Shown piece after piece: positions 51 to 54,425 of a DNA stretch of 64,000 bases. Made by a program: the position numbers and the translations under genes. The stretch is taken from positions 718,501 to 782,500 of the forward strand of contig NZ_CP110644.1 of assembly GCF_026153515.1 (NCBI RefSeq), read 5' to 3'. Each line of letters opens with the position of its first letter. Positions within the stretch are counted from its first letter, which is position 1. The notes below the pieces were generated by a model. The model worked only from the letters and a program-made list of their open reading frames with translations, was not told the DNA's origin and searched no databases. The DNA is from Pseudomonas sp. KU26590 (GTDB taxonomy: Bacteria > Pseudomonadota > Gammaproteobacteria > Pseudomonadales > Pseudomonadaceae).

Positions 51-76
51 GCGCTTTCTTTCGATAGATAAAGCGC
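51..76. promoter_or_regulatory. inverted repeat upstream of cytochrome b561 gene
   Basis: GCGCTTT (51-57) and AAAGCGC (70-76) form a 7-bp inverted repeat with a 12-nt gap, ending 34 bp before the cytochrome b561 start codon. It could be an operator or a short leader hairpin. No clear -35/-10 pair was recognised. The rest of 1-110 holds nothing I can name. Confidence 0.3.
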
Positions 77-3724: not shown

Positions 3725-4534
3725 TCACAACGCGCTGCTTTCCTGCTGCTCAACGGTTTTATCGACCCCAGTCCCCGATTCTGCAGGAATAGTCGTCGGC
3801 GTTTCGCCGGTGTACCGCTCCACCAGTTTGGCGTAGGCGGCTTCTTCCTTGAAACGCTTCAGTTCTGCGCTGAACCGTTGGGCCAGCAGGTCCATGCCGG
3901 CGTTGCGGCGTAGCGCCAGGTACTGCCCCCGATGATTGAGCACGACCGGCAATTGACTGACCTGGTCTTCCAGCTTGAGCCGCTTGATCATCTGCCGCCC
4001 CAGCAGGCGATCGGTCACCATCAAATCGATGCGGCCGCGAATCAGTTTGCCGAAGTTCGCTTCATGGCTCGGTGCAGGCTCCCGGATGAACGCTGTCGAG
4101 TTGTCGAACGCCGGGCTGTATCGATAACCCGGAGAGACGCCGACGGTCAGACCGTGCAAGTCTTCCATGCTATTGAAGGCATGCGGCCTGGCATTGGCCT
4201 GAAACAGCACCCAGTCGATGCTCGACAACGGTTCGTTCGGATACAACAGGTCAGCGCGCCCCTCGTCCCTGTTTATATCGAGAATGCCGTCAGCCTCGCC
4301 TTCACTGAGCATCATCAGGCAGCGCTTCCAGGGGAGAAACTGCCACTCGACGTCGATGCCCAGGCGCTCGAAGACGATCGCCGTGGTGTCGTAATCCAGC
4401 CCGGAGGCATGGTTGTCGTCCACGATGACGTAGGGGGACCAGGGTTCGGTGACGATCCGCAGTTTTTCGCCCAGCGCGCTGAAGCTCAGGCAGGCGAGGA
4501 GGGCTGCAGCGGATATTGGGAGGATGGACGGCAT
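3725..4534 (-). CDS. periplasmic amino-acid-type solute-binding protein
   Basis: 269 residues with a signal peptide (about 1-22, ending near SALG) and an extracellular solute-binding family 3 fold. This is shown by KLRIVTEPWSPYV, the GLDYDTTAIVFERLGIDVEW segment and the late VGVSPGYRYS and FGKLIRGRIDLMV motifs. No permease or ATPase gene is adjacent, so it is an orphan binding protein. It may act as a sensor or work with a distant transporter. The ligand cannot be told from sequence. It sits between rhlE and metF, as in other Pseudomonas. Confidence 0.85.
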   Translation of the reverse strand: MPSILPISAAALLACLSFSALGEKLRIVTEPWSPYVIVDDNHASGLDYDTTAIVFERLGIDVEWQFLPWKRCLMMLSEGEADGILDINRDEGRADLLYPNEPLSSIDWVLFQANARPHAFNSMEDLHGLTVGVSPGYRYSPAFDNSTAFIREPAPSHEANFGKLIRGRIDLMVTDRLLGRQMIKRLKLEDQVSQLPVVLNHRGQYLALRRNAGMDLLAQRFSAELKRFKEEAAYAKLVERYTGETPTTIPAESGTGVDKTVEQQESSAL

Positions 4535-4690: not shown

Positions 4691-5536
4691 TCACGCGGAG
4701 AGCTTCAGATTATTCCAGACCGCCAGGCTCGGTTCGGCCTGATTCAGCGTGTAGAAATGCAGACCGGGGGCGCCGCCGTGCAGCAGTCGCTCGCACATTT
4801 CAGTGATGACCTGCTCGCCAAACGCCTGAATGCTTGCCGTGTCGTCGCCATACGCTTCCAGCTGCTTGCGCACCCAGCGCGGGATCTCCGCACCGCACGC
4901 GTCGGAAAAGCGCGCCAGTTTGCTGTAGTTGGTGATCGGCATGATGCCCGGTACGATCGGAATATCCACGCCCAGCTTCTGCACGCGCTCGACGAAGTGG
5001 AAGTAGCTGTCGGCGTTGAAGAAGTACTGAGTGATCGCACTGTTGGCGCCGGCGTTGGCCTTGCGCACGAAGTTTTTCAGATCGTCTTCGAAGTTGCGTG
5101 CCTGCGGGTGCATCTCCGGGTAGGCGGCGACTTCAATGTGGAAATGGTCGCCGGTTTCTTCACGGATGAAGCTCACCAGGTCGTTGGCATAACGCAGCTC
5201 ACCGCTGGCCATGCCCATGCCGGAGGGCAGGTCACCGCGCAGGGCAACGATACGTTTGATACCGGCTTGCTGGTACTGCGCCAGCAAGCTGCGCAGGTCG
5301 GCCTTGCTGTCACCGACACACGACAGGTGCGGTGCCGCCGGAACGTGTACTTCTTTTTCCAGCTGCAGCACGGTGTTGATCGTGCGGTCGCGCGTGGAAC
5401 CCCCGGCACCGTATGTGCAGGAGAAAAAACTGGGGTTGTAGCTGGCCAGCGTACGCGCCGTGGCAAGCAGTTTTTCATGACCAGCGTCGGTCTTCGTCGG
5501 GAAGAATTCGAAACTGTAGCTACGGTCTTGGGACAT
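4691..5536 (-). CDS. metF: 5,10-methylenetetrahydrofolate reductase
   Basis: 281 residues, the usual MetF length. It reduces 5,10-methylene-THF to 5-methyl-THF with FAD and NADH, supplying the methyl group for methionine synthesis. The N-terminal SFEFFPTKT motif, SCTYGAGGSTRDRT, the ALRGDLP motif and ITQYFFNAD are classic family signatures. I chose the ATG at 5536 because an AAGG site lies 8 nt upstream; an ATG two codons earlier is too close to it. The neighbour ahcY belongs to the same methyl cycle. A hairpin at about 4618-4645 after the stop lacks a U-tract and is not called a terminator. Confidence 0.96.
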   Translation of the reverse strand: MSQDRSYSFEFFPTKTDAGHEKLLATARTLASYNPSFFSCTYGAGGSTRDRTINTVLQLEKEVHVPAAPHLSCVGDSKADLRSLLAQYQQAGIKRIVALRGDLPSGMGMASGELRYANDLVSFIREETGDHFHIEVAAYPEMHPQARNFEDDLKNFVRKANAGANSAITQYFFNADSYFHFVERVQKLGVDIPIVPGIMPITNYSKLARFSDACGAEIPRWVRKQLEAYGDDTASIQAFGEQVITEMCERLLHGGAPGLHFYTLNQAEPSLAVWNNLKLSA

Positions 5537-47676: not shown

Positions 47677-49638
47677 ATGCTAAACACCCTTCTTCCCATC
47701 CTGCTCTTCGCTGCCTTGGGCCTTGCGGTCCTTGGCGCGCTGCGGCGGGTGAGCCTGTGGCGCAACGGGCGTGCGTCCAGGGTCGATCTGCTCGGCGGCC
47801 TGCTGGCGATGCCCAAGCGCTACATGGTCGATCTGCACCACGTCGTCGCGCGGGACAAATACATCGCCAACACCCACGTCGCCACGGCGGGCGGCGCGGT
47901 TGCGTCGATCATCCTTGCGATTCTGGTGCACGGTTTTGGCCTGCATAACCGGGTCCTTGGCTACGCGCTGCTGCTGATGTCGGCCGTGATGTTTGTTGGC
48001 GCGATCTTCATGTACCTGCGTCGTGGTCAGCCGCCGAGTCGGCTGTCAAAAGGCCCGTGGATGCGCCTGCCAAAAAGCCTGCTGGCGTTTTCGGGCTCGT
48101 TCTTTATCGTCACGTTGCCGGTTGCGGGCATTTTGCCTGCGAACTTTGGCGGCTGGCTGCTGGCGATCATTCTTGGCATCGGCGTGCTCTGGGGCGTCTG
48201 CGAGTTGTTCCTCGGCATGACTTGGGGCGGGCCGATGAAGCACGCGTTCGCCGGCGCGCTGCACCTGGCATGGCACCGTCGCCCGGAGCGCTTCGGCGGG
48301 GGCCGTTCGACAGGGCTGAAACCCCTCGATCTGGCAGACAAAACCGCACCGCTGGGCGTCGAAAAACCCAAGGATTTCACCTGGAACCAGCTACTCGGTT
48401 TCGATGCATGCGTGCAGTGCGGCAAGTGCGAAGCTGCCTGTCCTGCCTTCGCCGCCGGCCAACCGCTGAACCCGAAAAAGCTGATTCAAGACATGGTCGT
48501 CGGGCTGGCGGGCGGCACTGATGCAAACTTTGCGGGAAGTCCCTATCCGTCCCTTGACGGCCAAGGCAAGCCTGTCGGTGAGCATGGCGGCAATCCCCAT
48601 CAACCCATCGTCAATGGACTGGTCGACGCCGACACCCTGTGGTCGTGCACGACCTGCCGGGCTTGCGTGGAAGAGTGCCCGATGATGATCGAGCACGTGG
48701 ACGCGATCGTCGACATGCGTCGGCATCTGACCCTCGAAAAGGGCGCAACGCCCAACAAGGGCGCCGAGGTGCTGGAAAACCTGATTGCGACCGACAACCC
48801 AGGCGGCTTCGCCCCGGGTGGACGCATGAACTGGGCAGCAGACCTGAACCTTGAGGTCATGAGCAACAGGAAAACCGTGGACGTGCTGTTCTGGGTCGGC
48901 GATGGCGCGTTCGACATGCGCAATCAGCGCACCTTGCGCGCGTTCGTCAAGGTGCTGAAAGCCGCCAAGGTCGACTTCGCGGTGCTGGGTCTTGAAGAGC
49001 GTGACAGCGGTGATGTTGCGCGGCGTCTGGGCGATGAAGCGACGTTCCAGATGCTCGCCAGACGCAATATCCAGACGCTGGCGCAGTACGACTTCAAGCG
49101 CATCGTCACCTGCGACCCGCACAGCTTTCATGTGCTGAAAAACGAATACGGTGCGTTCGACGGCCACTACGTCGTACAGCACCACAGCACTTATCTGGCA
49201 GAGCTGATAGTCAACGGCGCGTTGAATCTGGGCCAGCACAAAGGTGCCAGCGTCACCTATCACGATCCCTGCTACCTCGGTCGTTACAACGGCGAATACC
49301 AGGCGCCGCGCGATGTGCTGCGTGCGCTGGGCATCGAGGTCAAGGAAATGGTGCGGTCCGGATTCCGCTCACGTTGCTGCGGCGGCGGTGGTGGCGCTCC
49401 GATCACCGACATTCCCGGCAGGCAACGGATTCCGGACATGCGCATGGATGACATCCGCGAGACCGGCGCCGAATTGGTGGCCGTGGGTTGTCCACAGTGC
49501 ACCGCGATGCTTGAAGGCGTGGTCGAGCCACGGCCGATGATCAAGGACATCGCCGAACTGGTGGCTGACGCGCTGCTTGAAGACACCGCGCCTGCAAAAC
49601 CGGCAGCGGCCCGACGTGAACCTGCGGAGGCCCATTGA
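47677..49638 (+). CDS. dgcB: dimethylglycine demethylase subunit DgcB (membrane iron-sulfur protein)
   Basis: 653 residues from MLNTLLPILL with GGGAG upstream. The N-terminal membrane part has about five helices (residues 1-180). Two [4Fe-4S] clusters follow: C245-x2-C248-x2-C251-x3-C255 and C324-x2-C327-x2-C330-x3-C334. The C-terminal half holds CCG heterodisulfide-reductase-like domains (HDPCYLGRYNGEYQ, RSRCCGGGGGAP). It passes electrons from dimethylglycine oxidation to the membrane chain. Its stop codon overlaps the next gene's start by one base. Confidence 0.93.
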   Translation: MLNTLLPILLFAALGLAVLGALRRVSLWRNGRASRVDLLGGLLAMPKRYMVDLHHVVARDKYIANTHVATAGGAVASIILAILVHGFGLHNRVLGYALLLMSAVMFVGAIFMYLRRGQPPSRLSKGPWMRLPKSLLAFSGSFFIVTLPVAGILPANFGGWLLAIILGIGVLWGVCELFLGMTWGGPMKHAFAGALHLAWHRRPERFGGGRSTGLKPLDLADKTAPLGVEKPKDFTWNQLLGFDACVQCGKCEAACPAFAAGQPLNPKKLIQDMVVGLAGGTDANFAGSPYPSLDGQGKPVGEHGGNPHQPIVNGLVDADTLWSCTTCRACVEECPMMIEHVDAIVDMRRHLTLEKGATPNKGAEVLENLIATDNPGGFAPGGRMNWAADLNLEVMSNRKTVDVLFWVGDGAFDMRNQRTLRAFVKVLKAAKVDFAVLGLEERDSGDVARRLGDEATFQMLARRNIQTLAQYDFKRIVTCDPHSFHVLKNEYGAFDGHYVVQHHSTYLAELIVNGALNLGQHKGASVTYHDPCYLGRYNGEYQAPRDVLRALGIEVKEMVRSGFRSRCCGGGGGAPITDIPGRQRIPDMRMDDIRETGAELVAVGCPQCTAMLEGVVEPRPMIKDIAELVADALLEDTAPAKPAAARREPAEAH

Positions 49639-50858
49639 TGAGCGACATTATCCGCCGCGACCCGCGCGCTGAGTGGATCGCGCGAAACCGCCTGCATCCC
49701 TTGCACGCTTCCATGCAACCGGCCCAATCCAGCTGGATGGGCCCCAACGGTGTGCTGCGTAAAAACGTGCATGGCATCGGTTTTATCGGTCCCAACGGGG
49801 TTAAGCGCATTGATCGAAGCGGGGCGCAGCAAGGGGGCGCGGTCAAACGCTCCGCATCGGTGGACGTGCCATTGCCGTTGCATCGAATTGCAACGCCGGC
49901 CTTTTACATCGCTGTTGTGCCCGACATGGTCGGCGGCCGTCTGAGCAGCCATGACCGCGATCTGCTGGGCTTGGCCCACGGGCTGGCTGGCACCGAGGGC
50001 GCTGTCCTGGCGGTGATTTTTGGCGAGCACAAAGAGACCGCGTTCGATACCGCTGGCGTAGATCGTCTGTTGGTACTGGAAGGCAGCGCGTTCAGTGGCT
50101 ATTCGCCCGAGCAGCGTGTGCAGGGTCTGCGGGCTGTGGATAACCAGTTCGACCCGCATCACTGGCTACTGCCCGACAGCCGAAACGGTGGGGGCGAGTT
50201 GGGGCGCCGCTTTGCGGCCAGCCTGGGCGAGCGTCCGTCGACACGCGTCTGGCAAGTGGCTGGCGAACAGTGCATCGGTCGTGCAGGTGCTGGCGCGGAG
50301 GACCTGTTGCGTCCCGTATCACGCCTGATTCTTGCTCAAGCGGAATGCGCAGAGCCTGTCAGTGAAACGCGGCATGAAGCGCTGCCTATGGAGTTATCCA
50401 CAGCTGTCGCGCGTAGCTTGCCGCGCATCGAGGACCTCGGCGCCGTGGCGGTCGATCCTGCGCTTATCCCCATGTCCGAAGCTGAATTCATATTTTCAGG
50501 CGGCAACGGGGTCAAGGACTGGTCGCTGTTTCACCGCACTGCCGTCGCCCTTGGCGCTACAGAAGGCGCATCCCGTGTGGCCGTCGACGATGGCTTCATG
50601 ACCCGGGATCGCCAGGTCGGTGCGTCCGGAACCTGGGTCACTGCCCGGGTGTACGTGGCGGTCGGGATTTCCGGCGCGATCCAGCATCTACAGGGCATTG
50701 GCGCCTGCGACAAGGTGGTGGCGATCAACCTCGATCCGACCTGCGACATGATCAAACGGGCTGATTTGTCGGTGATCGGCGAGAGCGCTGCCATTCTCGA
50801 AGCGCTGGTTGAAGCGGTCGACACCTACCGGAATGGGGCGAAGCGCGATGCAGCCTGA
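49638..50858 (+). CDS. etfA: electron transfer flavoprotein alpha subunit of the dimethylglycine cluster
   Basis: 406 residues. The C-terminal FAD domain is clear: GASGTWVTARVYVAVGISG, AIQHLQGIGACDKVVAIN and ADLSVIG. The N-terminal 70 residues (RRDPRAEWIARNRLHPLHA, WMGPNGVLRKN) are an extension absent from housekeeping ETF-alpha. That marks this as the betaine-cluster paralogue (PA5400-like, from memory). It overlaps dgcB by one base (TGATG) with GCGGAGG ahead. It likely accepts electrons from DgcAB or sarcosine oxidation. Two exact TTATCCACA-type sites fall inside (50135, 50394). Confidence 0.88.
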   Translation: MSDIIRRDPRAEWIARNRLHPLHASMQPAQSSWMGPNGVLRKNVHGIGFIGPNGVKRIDRSGAQQGGAVKRSASVDVPLPLHRIATPAFYIAVVPDMVGGRLSSHDRDLLGLAHGLAGTEGAVLAVIFGEHKETAFDTAGVDRLLVLEGSAFSGYSPEQRVQGLRAVDNQFDPHHWLLPDSRNGGGELGRRFAASLGERPSTRVWQVAGEQCIGRAGAGAEDLLRPVSRLILAQAECAEPVSETRHEALPMELSTAVARSLPRIEDLGAVAVDPALIPMSEAEFIFSGGNGVKDWSLFHRTAVALGATEGASRVAVDDGFMTRDRQVGASGTWVTARVYVAVGISGAIQHLQGIGACDKVVAINLDPTCDMIKRADLSVIGESAAILEALVEAVDTYRNGAKRDAA

Positions 50859-51651
50859 AATGGGTAGCTCTGTGGATAAAGGTGCGTTGCACGTGATCAG
50901 CCTCGTCTCTGTCGGCGCTCATCCGACGTCTGGCCGGCCGCGTCGCGCCGAGCAGGACGCCCGGGCGGTTGAGCTGGGTTTGCAACTGGCTGGGGATAAC
51001 TTGCATGTGTTGCATGCCGGTGATGCCGAAGAGCCCGCATTACGTGGCTACCTGGGCATGGGCGTGGACGAGCTTCACGTGCTGGCTCAGCCGCCGGGTG
51101 CGGACGCGTTGCCCGGACTGGCGGATTATGTGCGCGAGTCCGGGGTGCAGTTGGTGCTGACCGGCAGTCAGGCTGAAACCGGCGAAGGCTCCGGCATGCT
51201 CCCGTATTTGCTGGCTGAAAAGCTCGGCTGGCCGCTGGTGGTGGGCCTGGCCGAGGTCGAGTCCATGAGCAACGGCAGCGCCCAGGTGCTGCAGGCGCTC
51301 CCCCGAGGTCAACGCCGCCGACTTAAAGTCCGCCTGCCGTTTTTGGCGACTGTGGATAACTCTGCACCGAAACCCCGCCAGAGCGCCTACGGCCCGGCGC
51401 AACGCGGTTTGCTGGATGTGGAGGAGATTGAAGTGGTCATCGACGAAGTGTTCATCGACGCTAAGCTGACGCCCGCCAAGCCACGGCCGAAGCGCTTGAA
51501 GGTCATCAAAGCCAAGAGCGGCGCTGATCGTATGAAGGCCGCAACGGCGAAAGCGAGCGGAGGCGGTGGGCAGGTTCTCAAGGGAGTGACTGCTCAGGAG
51601 GGGGCTGCTGCGATTTTGAAGTTGCTGGTGGAGGAGGGGGTGGTGCGTTGA
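50848..51651 (+). CDS. etfB: electron transfer flavoprotein beta subunit of the dimethylglycine cluster
   Basis: 267 residues from MQPEMGSSVD; the start overlaps the etfA stop by 11 bp. ETF-beta landmarks are an early VISLVSVGAHPTSGRP, LTGSQAETGEGSGMLPYLLAEKLG and GQRRRLKVRLPFLATVDNSAPKPRQ. The C-terminus is an unusual Lys/Ala-rich tail (KPRPKRLKVIKAKSGADRM). It pairs with the preceding subunit as an electron carrier. Two TGTGGATAA sites are in its coding DNA (50871, 51351). A terminator follows directly. Confidence 0.87.
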   Translation: MQPEMGSSVDKGALHVISLVSVGAHPTSGRPRRAEQDARAVELGLQLAGDNLHVLHAGDAEEPALRGYLGMGVDELHVLAQPPGADALPGLADYVRESGVQLVLTGSQAETGEGSGMLPYLLAEKLGWPLVVGLAEVESMSNGSAQVLQALPRGQRRRLKVRLPFLATVDNSAPKPRQSAYGPAQRGLLDVEEIEVVIDEVFIDAKLTPAKPRPKRLKVIKAKSGADRMKAATAKASGGGGQVLKGVTAQEGAAAILKLLVEEGVVR

Positions 51652-51657
51652 GCACCG

Positions 51658-51681
51658 AAAGGCGCCACGATGGCGCCTTTT
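51658..51681. terminator. bidirectional terminator after etfB
   Basis: AAAGGCGCCA-CGA-TGGCGCCTTTT, a 10-bp stem with A/T ends, 6 bp after the etfB stop and 6 bp before the stop codon of the convergent unknown gene. Confidence 0.92.
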
Positions 51682-51687
51682 CTCCGT

Positions 51688-52206
51688 TCACGACTGAGGC
51701 GTATCTGGCTGCATTTTTTGACCCCTGGAATCTGCATCAACAATCACAACGTCGAAAACCTGCTCAATGACCTGACGCGTCCCCTGTTTCAAACTCCATG
51801 CGAAGAAAACGAGACACCCAACCAGTAAAGTGAACAAGCCCGAACCAACGAGGCTCTGCGCAGCTCCCTTCCAAAACCCTGGCCGCGCCATTCGGATGTC
51901 GTTGGCGGCTCTTGAGGAGCAAAACGCTGCCAACTCGTCCGTTTCGGTACTCAGTGAGGACTCCAGAAAGTTTGTCGCCAGCCGGGTCGCCTGGGTTCGA
52001 TAGGCTTCAAGTTGCGAACTGCTGTTGCTGATATCGTGAAACGCAACGAGATCGCAATCTAGCGGATCAGTGCCGTTTCTCTCTTTGAACGCGTGGATAT
52101 ACTCGATTTTTTGCCGTTTATACACCGAGTAGGCCAGTTGGCCGAGTATGTCGTCTTCATCGTTCACTAACTCGCTGAAGATGTAGTTGTAGCGCTCTTC
52201 GGTCAT
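51688..52206 (-). CDS. unknown single-pass membrane protein
   Basis: 172 residues. The N-terminal 100 residues are soluble and helical (EERYNYIFSELVNDEDDI, AYSVYKRQKIEYIHAFKE, LEAYRTQATRLATNFLESS). One strong membrane helix lies at about 112-137 (FWKGAAQSLVGSGLFTLLVG), then a short tail. I do not recognise a named family with confidence. AGGAG nine bases before the ATG overlaps the end of the upstream small gene, so the two are translationally coupled. The cassette is in an accessory position between conserved etf and gbc genes; a membrane effector role is possible but unproven. Confidence 0.72.
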   Translation of the reverse strand: MTEERYNYIFSELVNDEDDILGQLAYSVYKRQKIEYIHAFKERNGTDPLDCDLVAFHDISNSSSQLEAYRTQATRLATNFLESSLSTETDELAAFCSSRAANDIRMARPGFWKGAAQSLVGSGLFTLLVGCLVFFAWSLKQGTRQVIEQVFDVVIVDADSRGQKMQPDTPQS

Positions 52207-52212
52207 GTGAGA

Positions 52213-52401
52213 TCACTCCTGCCGGAGCCTGCGGGAGGCCGATCGGAATGCTTCCCTGATTTCTTCTGTGGTCTTGGGTTTAAAGCTGATAATGCCCAAT
52301 AATTCCTTGGGCAGAGCAAACGAAGCCCCTTGCTTACGTTTACATAGCCTGCTGTTCGCCTCAATGACGACTTTGTGTGAGAACGGTGTCCAGTGATGCA
52401 T
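52213..52401 (-). CDS. small basic protein of unknown function, paired with membrane protein gene
   Basis: 62 residues, rich in Lys and Arg, no membrane segment: MHHWTPFSHKVVIEANSRL then KTTEEIREAFRSASRRLRQE. A textbook AAGGAG lies 7 nt before the ATG, which supports a real gene despite the length. Its stop is 6 bp before the membrane-protein start. It could bind nucleic acid or the partner protein; no family recognised. Confidence 0.65.
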   Translation of the reverse strand: MHHWTPFSHKVVIEANSRLCKRKQGASFALPKELLGIISFKPKTTEEIREAFRSASRRLRQE

Positions 52402-52499
52402 GAGGGTGCTCCTTGCCGCCGGTTGATTTGCGCTGAGTGTACCGAGCTGTCCGGGGCATGGATGTCAGACGCTTCCTAAACGTACCCACCCAAATGTCT

Positions 52500-52930
52500 A
52501 TGTATACATACCCACAATCGCTGTTGATCCGCCTGTGGATAAACTGTTTGCGTATTGCTACAGCCCTTTGCTGGCGTCGCTCTCAGCCGGCTGGTTGATT
52601 TTTGATCGCTCTATCTGGCGGATTCTTATGGATTTTTTCCACAAGCCAGCCTTGTCGGCGCGTGTTCTTACCCACATTGTCTGTGCGCGTGCGTGTGGAT
52701 AACATGTTCGTGATTCGCTGCGGCCCTTGTAATTCGTGGCCTCCAAAGCTTTGTTCAAAATTTAACCAATAACAGCTATCGAGCGTCGATTTGCTCTGCT
52801 TGTCTCCTGTACTAAGCCCTTTTCACGCTTTTCCACAGCAGTCGGCATACTTACACACATAGGCTGTTGGCTGTTCTGTGGATAACATGTTCGCGGTCAG
52901 GCTTGCGCCCCTGAATCCGGCAGGTTGAGC
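52500..52930. repeat. three repeated modules of DnaA-box-like sites
   Basis: In the 725-bp gap 52402-53126 each module has a left box and an inverted right box exactly 26 bp apart: ATACCCACA 52508/TGTGGATAA 52534; TTACCCACA 52668/TGTGGATAA 52694; TTACACACA 52851/TGTGGATAA 52877. All right boxes are perfect DnaA boxes (TTATCCACA on the other strand) and are followed by similar sequence (ACATGTTCG in two, then a GCCC(T/C)TTG-like block). Two modules also carry TTTTCCACA (52635, 52829). Modules repeat at about 160 and 183 bp. Likely DnaA binding, or a dispersed repeat family based on this palindrome. Confidence 0.75.
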
Positions 52931-53037
52931 GATATGATCAAAAAATGAGCAGGTGTCTCCTCTGGGTATTGATCAACGCAGAACCAGAAGCAGATCCAGA
53001 GACGTTCACCCGGATTTCCACTCACCCATCCAAAACG

Positions 53038-53096
53038 CATCGCGGGCAAGCGCGCTCCTACAGGTGAATGTCTGTAGAAGCGCGGTTGCCCGCGAC
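53038..53096. repeat. REP pair, 'gtaggagcgcgcttgcccgcga' type, outward order
   Basis: TCGCGGGCAAGCGCGCTCCT followed closely by a degenerate TGTAGAAGCGCGGTTGCCCG, downstream of the gbcA stop codon. The remaining DNA 52930-53037 shows nothing further. Confidence 0.85.
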
Positions 53097-53126
53097 AGTG
53101 TCAGCTCAAACCCGACAGGTAAAACC

Positions 53127-54425
53127 CTACTCGTGGTTAACCGCCACGCCCTTCAAATACGAAGCAGGTTCGGCGCCCATGTTCTCCAGCAATTTGGCGC
53201 TGTACCAGTCGATGAAGTTCACCACGCCGAACTCGTAGGTCTTCGAATATGGCCCCGGCTGGTAAGCGATCGAGTTGATGCCGCGCTGGTTTTCTTCGGC
53301 CAGACGGCGGTCTTGGTCGTTGGTGGCGTCCCAGACTTCACGCAGGCGCGCGACGTCGTAGTCCACGCCCTCCACAGCATCCTTGTGCACCAGCCACTTG
53401 GTGGTGACCATGGTTTCCTGTGCGCTGATCGGCCACACGGTGAACACAATCACATGGTCGCCCATGCAGTGGTTCCACGAGTGGGGCAGGTGCAGGATGC
53501 GCATCGAGCCTAGGTCCGGGTTCTGGATGCGGCCCATCAGCTTCTTGCTGCCTTGCTTGCCATCCATCGTCATCGAGACGGTGCCTTTGAGCAGCGGCAT
53601 GCGCACGATGCGGTTGCGCAGGCCAAAGCTGGCGTGGGCGAACGGGATTTTTTCGGCTTCCCAGGCGGCAGCGGAGGCCGCGACGTGGTCCTTGAAGGCC
53701 TGATCGGCGCGCGGGTCGGTAACGTCGTCCCACTCCAGCAAGGTGTTCAGCAGTTCGGGGTGCGACGCATTGCAGTGGTAGCACTCGCGGTTGTTTTCCA
53801 GCACCAGCTTCCAGTTGGCTTTCTCCATCAAGGTGGTTTGCACCGCCACCTTGGTGTTCTCCATGTCGTACGGTTCCATGTAGTGGTTCAGCGTCTGCAG
53901 GAACGCGTCGATGGCAGGCGGATTGCTCGCCATGCTGATGAAAATATACCCGCCCGCGACCTTGCAATGCACTGGCTTGAGGCCGAACTGCTTCATGTCG
54001 AAGTCCGCACCCATCTCGGTGCCCGCGTACAGCAGGCGACCGTCGAGCTCGTACGTCCACTGGTGGTAAGGGCAAACCAGCTTGGCAACCTTGCCTTTTT
54101 CCTTGGTGCACAGGCGTGAGCCACGGTGACGGCAGACGTTGTGGAACGCATTGATCGAGCCGTCCGGCCCGCGCACCACCAGGATCGGGTTCTTGCCGAT
54201 CTGGAGGGTGAGGAAGTTGCCTTTGGCCGGCACTTCGCAGCTCATGCCCGCGATCAGCCACTCTTTCTGAAAGATTTCCTGCATATCGATTTCATACAGC
54301 CGCTCATCGCTGTAGAAAGGCTGCGGCAGCGAGTAAGTGCGCTCGCGGGTGTGCAGCATCTCGGCAGTCGCCTTGCGCGCAGGTTCCAGCGGATCGCCCA
54401 AGCTCAGAGTTGCGGTGACGTCCAT
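53127..54425 (-). CDS. gbcA: glycine betaine monooxygenase, Rieske oxygenase component
   Basis: 432 residues. The Rieske [2Fe-2S] ligands are C98-x-H100 (VCRHRGS) and C118-x2-H121 (CPYHQW). The mononuclear iron site begins at NRECYHCNASHPELL. The C-terminal catalytic domain is of the aromatic-ring-hydroxylase alpha type. It hydroxylates a methyl group of glycine betaine, giving dimethylglycine and formaldehyde. It is divergent from its reductase gbcB across a 329-bp control region. Confidence 0.94.
   Translation of the reverse strand: MDVTATLSLGDPLEPARKATAEMLHTRERTYSLPQPFYSDERLYEIDMQEIFQKEWLIAGMSCEVPAKGNFLTLQIGKNPILVVRGPDGSINAFHNVCRHRGSRLCTKEKGKVAKLVCPYHQWTYELDGRLLYAGTEMGADFDMKQFGLKPVHCKVAGGYIFISMASNPPAIDAFLQTLNHYMEPYDMENTKVAVQTTLMEKANWKLVLENNRECYHCNASHPELLNTLLEWDDVTDPRADQAFKDHVAASAAAWEAEKIPFAHASFGLRNRIVRMPLLKGTVSMTMDGKQGSKKLMGRIQNPDLGSMRILHLPHSWNHCMGDHVIVFTVWPISAQETMVTTKWLVHKDAVEGVDYDVARLREVWDATNDQDRRLAEENQRGINSIAYQPGPYSKTYEFGVVNFIDWYSAKLLENMGAEPASYLKGVAVNHE

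Follow-up and report, generated by a model that had tools for sequence, protein, structure and literature searches.

Three copies of a three-box DnaA-binding module lie at 52508-52950 of a 64,000-nucleotide stretch of the Pseudomonas sp. KU26590 chromosome (contig NZ_CP110644.1, positions 718,501 to 782,500; this whole stretch is hereafter the window, and positions refer to it unless given in kb of the genome). They probably represent sites at which the initiator protein DnaA is recharged, having the geometry of the DnaA-reactivating sequences (DARS) of Escherichia coli, each with a phased Fis-consensus site, and they would likely help to time replication. DARS are described for E. coli and its relatives in the parts of the literature cited here, and the titles and abstract openings of open-access papers gave no description of DARS in Pseudomonas among the matches listed. 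If this reading is true, Pseudomonas too would control replication timing through nucleotide exchange, its growth-linked partner being Fis and no site for integration host factor (IHF) being evident; the number and place of recharging sites would become countable across species, and the three modules with their equidistant Fis sites would provide exact targets for work on initiation timing in a second gammaproteobacterial lineage.

The exact DnaA box TTATCCACA occurs seven times in the window (50135, 50394, 50871, 51351, 52534, 52694 and 52877) and nowhere else in it, as an earlier reading made from the sequence alone had recorded, and this is far above chance judging by 100 dinucleotide shuffles, which gave a mean of 0.20 and at most 2. 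The same sequence-only reading had paired each of the last three boxes with an inverted left partner 26 bp away (start to start) and had added TTTTCCACA to two of the resulting modules. Both observations hold: the partners lie on the opposite strand and are inexact as boxes (ATACCCACA, TTACCCACA and TTACACACA), and TTTTCCACA matches in the window at 52635 and 52829. The pairing is real, then, but the box between the partners had been missed, as had the Fis site and the loci elsewhere in the genome. Across the genome (6.18 Mb) there are 98 exact boxes compared with 12 copies of the reversed pattern, and clusters are not scattered at random, the other dense region being the one around dnaA. Chance clustering of boxes was rejected on the window shuffles, the reversed-pattern genome count and a control count of 0 in the sample of the genus described below. 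Of the 98 boxes, 33 fall within the 58 kb around dnaA (382907-440971 of contig 1, loci L003-L006); DnaA boxes are likewise reported to be enriched near oriC in E. coli (PMC12371093).

Within each module, box I is followed by box II at +14 and box III at +26, leaving gaps of 5 and 3 bp, with box I on the plus strand and boxes II and III on the minus strand. Module 1 comprises ATACCCACA (52508..52516), GGATCAACA (52522..52530) and TTATCCACA (52534..52542); module 2 comprises TTACCCACA (52668..52676), ACGCGCACA (52682..52690) and TTATCCACA (52694..52702); and module 3 comprises TTACACACA (52851..52859), CAGCCAACA (52865..52873) and TTATCCACA (52877..52885). Box III is exact, box I is a near-box with one to two mismatches, and box II, at +12 when counted from box III, is weak and keeps only its CACA/AACA end, being assigned from column conservation. 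Beyond box III column conservation marks a CRAACA patch on the minus strand (52545..52553, 52705..52713 and 52888..52896), which in module 1 is possibly a weak fourth box. Further out on the same side are the Fis-consensus sites, at 52593..52607 with one mismatch in module 1, and without mismatch at 52753..52767 (GTTCAAAATTTAACC) and 52936..52950 (GATCAAAAAATGAGC) in modules 2 and 3. The two TTTTCCACA copies are extra inverted boxes on the plus strand, lying on the box I side of module 2 (52635..52643, offset +59) and of module 3 (52829..52837, offset +48).

This arrangement recurs in related genomes. The strict pattern used for counting consists of TTATCCACA, 17 free bases and TGKGNRNAA, with box II absent from it. 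Across 151 distinct modules, most of them from loci carrying the neighbouring oxygenase gene (GbcA, see below), columns 18-21 of the spacer are nevertheless conserved as A (.97), C (.99), A (.97) and G (.95), and this ACAG corresponds to the CACA end of a box II at +12 on the same strand as the strong box. In 110 loci from Pseudomonas and its close relatives there are 428 distinct exact boxes; an inverted partner at +26 accompanies 196 of them and a same-strand MACA at +12 accompanies 214, the next offset reaching 20 in either case. A second inverted box is seen in either of two places separated by about one helical turn, +47/48 (29 counts) or +57..59 (38 counts), and the two TTTTCCACA copies of the window belong to this class. 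Column conservation runs past box III into CRAACA at -8..-3 and a patch at -65..-51.

The latter patch coincides with a Fis consensus. The form GnnYAnnnnnTRnnC given in PMC4245941 was made stricter (five W, at most one mismatch). Of the 137 modules that remain for this locus family after de-duplication, 96 have such a site starting exactly at -65 from box III. The same holds for 35 of 42 modules in a second set, which comes from two further loci of this genome and from 30 other genomes and includes some copies of the window locus. Over 199 modules the count at -65 is 147, no offset from -140 to -15 outside -66..-64 rising above 1, and among boxes without an inverted partner the consensus is found in 24 of 290. 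At other loci, divided by spacer type, it is present in 11/11, 2/3, 6/6 and 2/4 modules. Of 23 modules in other genera of the family (from 20 stretches chosen out of 67 such rows), 13 have it at -65 or -66, and among the ten distant gammaproteobacterial loci listed by the class-wide search described below, some of which share one genus, it lies at -65 to -67 in six and at -75 in one more. The KU26590 genome encodes a Fis protein, which scores above the family cut-off.

The geometry is that of the E. coli K-12 sites. In DARS1 and DARS2 the core boxes I, II and III are described as equally spaced, with I opposite to II and III (PMC5742627). The DARS1 core was located between bioD and uvrB as TTATCCACT-5-TGTGGATAA-3-TGTGTATTA, and the DARS2 core, with the same 5- and 3-bp gaps, between rppH and ygdT, upstream of mutH; all three window modules have box I opposite to II and III with these gaps. 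A profile derived solely from the 151 Pseudomonas modules was scanned over two 50-kb and two 10-kb E. coli stretches. The DARS1 core is the top position of its 50 kb at 20.5 bits (next 9.0), and the DARS2 core that of its own 50 kb at 19.8 bits (next 10.8), whereas the 10-kb stretches of datA and oriC peak at 12.4 and 12.6, the latter peak not being at oriC itself. The datA stretch contains, at position 4733 (L165), a head-to-tail pair, TTGTAAACA and then TTATCCACA, spaced 12 bp apart as boxes III and II are, without an inverted box I.

The spread of the modules was followed first around the oxygenase gene and then in wider samples. Among 80 GbcA loci, the best of a longer list, 51 have a strict module on the oxygenase strand, and 48 of these have two to four. 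Electron transfer flavoprotein (ETF) genes are within reach in 37 of the 80, 36 with modules, and of the remaining 43 there are 15 with modules, for which reason a dependence of the modules on the ETF genes was rejected. In two loci (L053 and L068) the modules are on the other strand, and in another (L033) they stay together beyond inserted open reading frames (ORFs). One locus, from Pseudomonas fluorescens PS723 (L081), has six strict modules downstream of the oxygenase gene rather than two to four. Few modules fall within long ORFs: the module centre is inside an ORF of at least 150 aa with an ATG or GTG start for 11 of 153 strict modules; for random positions the figure is 3282 of 4000. When box II is left out of the pattern, 148 of the 149 genomes sampled from the genus contain a match (control 0), as do 47 of 59 genomes of the family sample. 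In four genomes of the latter sample (G533, G547, G555 and G563) the arrangement differs, an inverted exact box lying within the module; in G533, G547 and G563 the arrangement reads TTATCCACAGAAGCTGTGGATAACTGTGTGGGTAA. A search that demanded the end of box II as well matched 56 genomes out of 370 in the class (control 0), many of which have a complete TTATCCACA in the place of box II, and 36 out of 397 in the phylum sample, 12 of the 36 lying outside the class.

In KU26590 the modules lie at 771.0-771.4 kb (the window), as a pair at 5651.6/5651.8 kb, and at 5703.1 and 5961.6 kb. The pair and the 5703.1-kb copy are between listed ORFs, and the 5961.6-kb module overlaps a 159-aa ORF with a TTG start. 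A weaker module-like site of 21.6 bits, with TTATTCACA as box III, lies 373 bp from this last module (5961574), at about 5961.9 kb (position 3948 of locus L131). Searches allowing up to 2 mismatches return further rows, for example 4438613, 5151709, 5249993 and 5879052, which are kept outside the module count. The dnaA gene is at 418.7 kb, 352 kb from the modules of the window, and the suggestion that this region lies near oriC is thus roughly right. There is no good module in the 376-445 kb around dnaA, the best position (388434, 30 kb from dnaA) scoring 16.4 bits without a box II. Forty of the 149 genus genomes are single contigs, and 31 of these were mapped, nine being omitted, including G113. 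Their 182 strict modules form 112 loci, of which 107 lie 0.3-1.0 Mb from dnaA, a count which is not a probability as the mapped loci are related by descent. Two loci are less than 0.1 Mb from dnaA, both without box II, and three are more than 1 Mb away, all in one genome. That genome, G029, is the sole one of the 31 with module loci at such a distance, and its chromosome is perhaps rearranged. An intergenic position at a conserved distance from the origin is also what characterises DARS; the positions of DARS and datA with respect to oriC are reported to be conserved, and to matter, in E. coli (PMC5010248).

At such sites ADP-DnaA would form a complex, give up its ADP and dissociate in a state ready to bind ATP. 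DnaA bound to box III would recruit DnaA to box II and, head to head, to box I, as has been proposed for DARS, and Fis would bend the flank and license the reaction, thereby tying recharging to growth. Fis is abundant in growing E. coli cells. Several copies placed mostly 0.3-1.0 Mb from dnaA, and doubled after initiation, would raise the level of ATP-DnaA for the next round.

The sequence-only reading had left the choice between datA-like and DARS-like sites, and it is the DARS part which is favoured by the sequence, through the geometry, the Fis consensus, the intergenic position and the distance from dnaA. A role of the datA kind, in which the boxes sequester DnaA, or stimulate hydrolysis of ATP, once the fork has passed, seems to us unlikely. 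Many strong boxes do stand together 352 kb from dnaA, where they would be replicated early, the single boxes in the ETF alpha gene (below) are kept at codon level and resemble plain binding sites, and the enrichment of E. coli boxes near oriC noted above points the same way. However, three boxes with the first inverted are the arrangement of DARS, the datA stretch reaches 12.4 bits where the DARS cores reach about 20 (20.5 and 19.8), and a Fis site at one fixed offset would be unnecessary for titration. In datA, moreover, DnaA boxes stand around an IHF site, and minimal datA is described as including one (PMC5742627), but no strong IHF position emerges from the modules, no IHF offset rising above the few matches given in the next paragraph.

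Two further explanations were considered. DnaA and Fis both serve as transcription factors, and the modules are upstream of a pair of small minus-strand ORFs (52401 down to 51688), so they might be promoter elements for the neighbouring genes; this we regard as very improbable, for the same module stands at several other loci with different neighbours, and a homologue of the 172-aa protein encoded there was found in 6 of the 80 GbcA loci compared with modules in 51, which weakens a promoter role for that gene. Transcription through DARS is, besides, stated to lower DARS activity in E. coli (PMC5010248). There is just as slight a chance that the modules organise the chromosome or form an accessory origin, putting DnaA and Fis to a use other than nucleotide exchange. 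DnaA together with Fis also occurs at origins, and the copies lie at 0.3-1.0 Mb on both sides of dnaA, but the region around dnaA itself has no good module, only the 16.4-bit position without box II. A number of findings nonetheless weigh against the interpretation as DARS-type recharging sites. A strict module on the GbcA strand is lacking in 29 of the 80 loci (some on short contigs), and any module in one of the 149 genus genomes (G113) and in 12 of the 59 of the family sample; when the CACA/AACA end of box II is required, 9 of the 14 genus genomes in the phylum sample match and 5 do not, and single copies of the TCCCC type are without this end. The Pseudomonas box II departs from the consensus in its 5' half, whereas its E. 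coli counterpart is the strong box of the core. The consensus used for Fis is undemanding and rich in A+T: 89 of 199 modules match its looser exact form (GnnYAn5TRnnC) at -65, other offsets having at most 4; 10 of the 23 modules from other genera are without the consensus at -65/-66; and neither E. coli DARS1 nor DARS2 has a Fis site at -65. For the IHF sequence WATCAANNNNTTR, one mismatch being allowed, the count at a single offset does not exceed 5 among the 137 modules or 6 among the 42, and the exact consensus is present in 3 of 49 clusters; an IHF site at a fixed place in the modules was accordingly rejected. Finally, in a Markov sequence of E. coli composition (4.6 Mb) at least two places reach 19.7 bits, with a maximum of 24.9. 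The profile score alone is not selective genome-wide, and it is the exact register on both cores that singles out DARS; the case for recharging sites consequently rests on geometry and register, and not on the score alone.

The remaining four exact boxes of the window are inside the ETF genes, and are single boxes without a partner in the loci looked at. The two in the ETF alpha gene (etfA), at 50135..50143 (minus strand) and 50394..50402 (plus strand), are conserved without a single change in 91% and 80% of the 35 related loci that were aligned, compared with 6% for the median 9-mer. Where the residue is kept, most codons of these boxes are retained more often than gene-wide: GCT.94 against.23, GTG 1.00 against.71, GAT 1.00 against.55, AAC 1.00 against.78, TCC 1.00 against.45 and ACA 1.00 against.40; for the TTA codon (.83) there is no other comparison. 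As the box codons are mostly kept above the gene-wide level, it is likely that the DNA itself is under constraint, and these boxes are a separate and likewise conserved addition of predicted DnaA-binding sites, perhaps serving titration. Those of the ETF beta gene (etfB) are less well kept, at 62% of 37 aligned loci for the box within the gene (51351..51359, minus strand) and 32% for the one near its start (50871..50879, minus strand), in which three of the four codons were unscorable.

As to the surrounding genes, Pfam places ETF alpha at 49635-50855, ETF beta at 50809-51648 and a Rieske/ring-hydroxylating oxygenase at 53130-54425 on the minus strand. The nearest named relatives of the oxygenase, at 99% identity, are from Pseudomonas graminis and a Pseudomonas sp.; the name gbc is that given by the sequence-only reading, and GbcA is used here as a label only. 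On the minus strand there are also a 172-aa protein (51691-52206, ORF 51688-52206) and, six bases ahead of it, a 62-aa ORF (52213-52401); neither has a Pfam family, the only match being a weak one to Skp1 below the cut-off. The 725-bp gap previously described (52402-53126) stands if the 62-aa ORF is counted as a gene, and otherwise becomes about 920 bp. Rfam gave no family at the gathering score in 51600-53200.

Set beside the known E. coli systems, the modules are classed by their geometry as a putative DARS variant, and as neither DARS2 nor datA. With datA they have in common a cluster of DnaA boxes outside oriC, which in datA controls initiation, but datA is IHF-dependent, has no inverted box I at +26 and shows the low profile score already given. 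DARS1 has the same core geometry and, as a further likeness, lacks an IHF match over the 300 bp that follow on the box III side; full activity of DARS1 is reported to require a flank adjoining the last box (PMC4585315). It differs in being a single core, in having no Fis site at -65 and in its strong box, which is II and not III as in Pseudomonas. Boxes I and III of E. coli are also imperfect.

The likeness to DARS2 includes the core gaps, the inverted box I, a Fis site on the box III side and the intergenic position, and the distance of DARS2 from oriC, about 0.96 Mb, can be likened to the placement of the Pseudomonas modules. E. coli DARS2 is described as requiring both Fis and IHF, shifts of 5 bp in the sites impairing its activity (PMC4245941). 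Between its core and its Fis site lie the IHF sites; IHF-like sequences were matched at -87 and -71, and a Fis-type sequence at -125. The modules have a Fis site in the flank, at -65 rather than -125, and they are not assigned to DARS2 because IHF sites are not evident in them; DARS2 differs further in its strong box II and weak box III and in being one core, compared with an array of three to four in Pseudomonas. By these sequence features the Pseudomonas unit is shorter than DARS2, having a Fis-type site and no evident IHF site. Conservation of the DARS2 core has been reported for gammaproteobacteria related to E. coli (PMC4245941), and DARS for beta- and gammaproteobacteria close to it (PMC5742627). 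The presence of the same core, with a Fis consensus at -65 to -67, in distant Gammaproteobacteria suggests a wider proposal, to which we would give an even chance: that the compact, Fis-phased and IHF-free DARS of Pseudomonas, an array of three to four modules with single or paired copies on both sides of oriC, may be the general form, from which the IHF-dependent DARS2 of E. coli would be derived.

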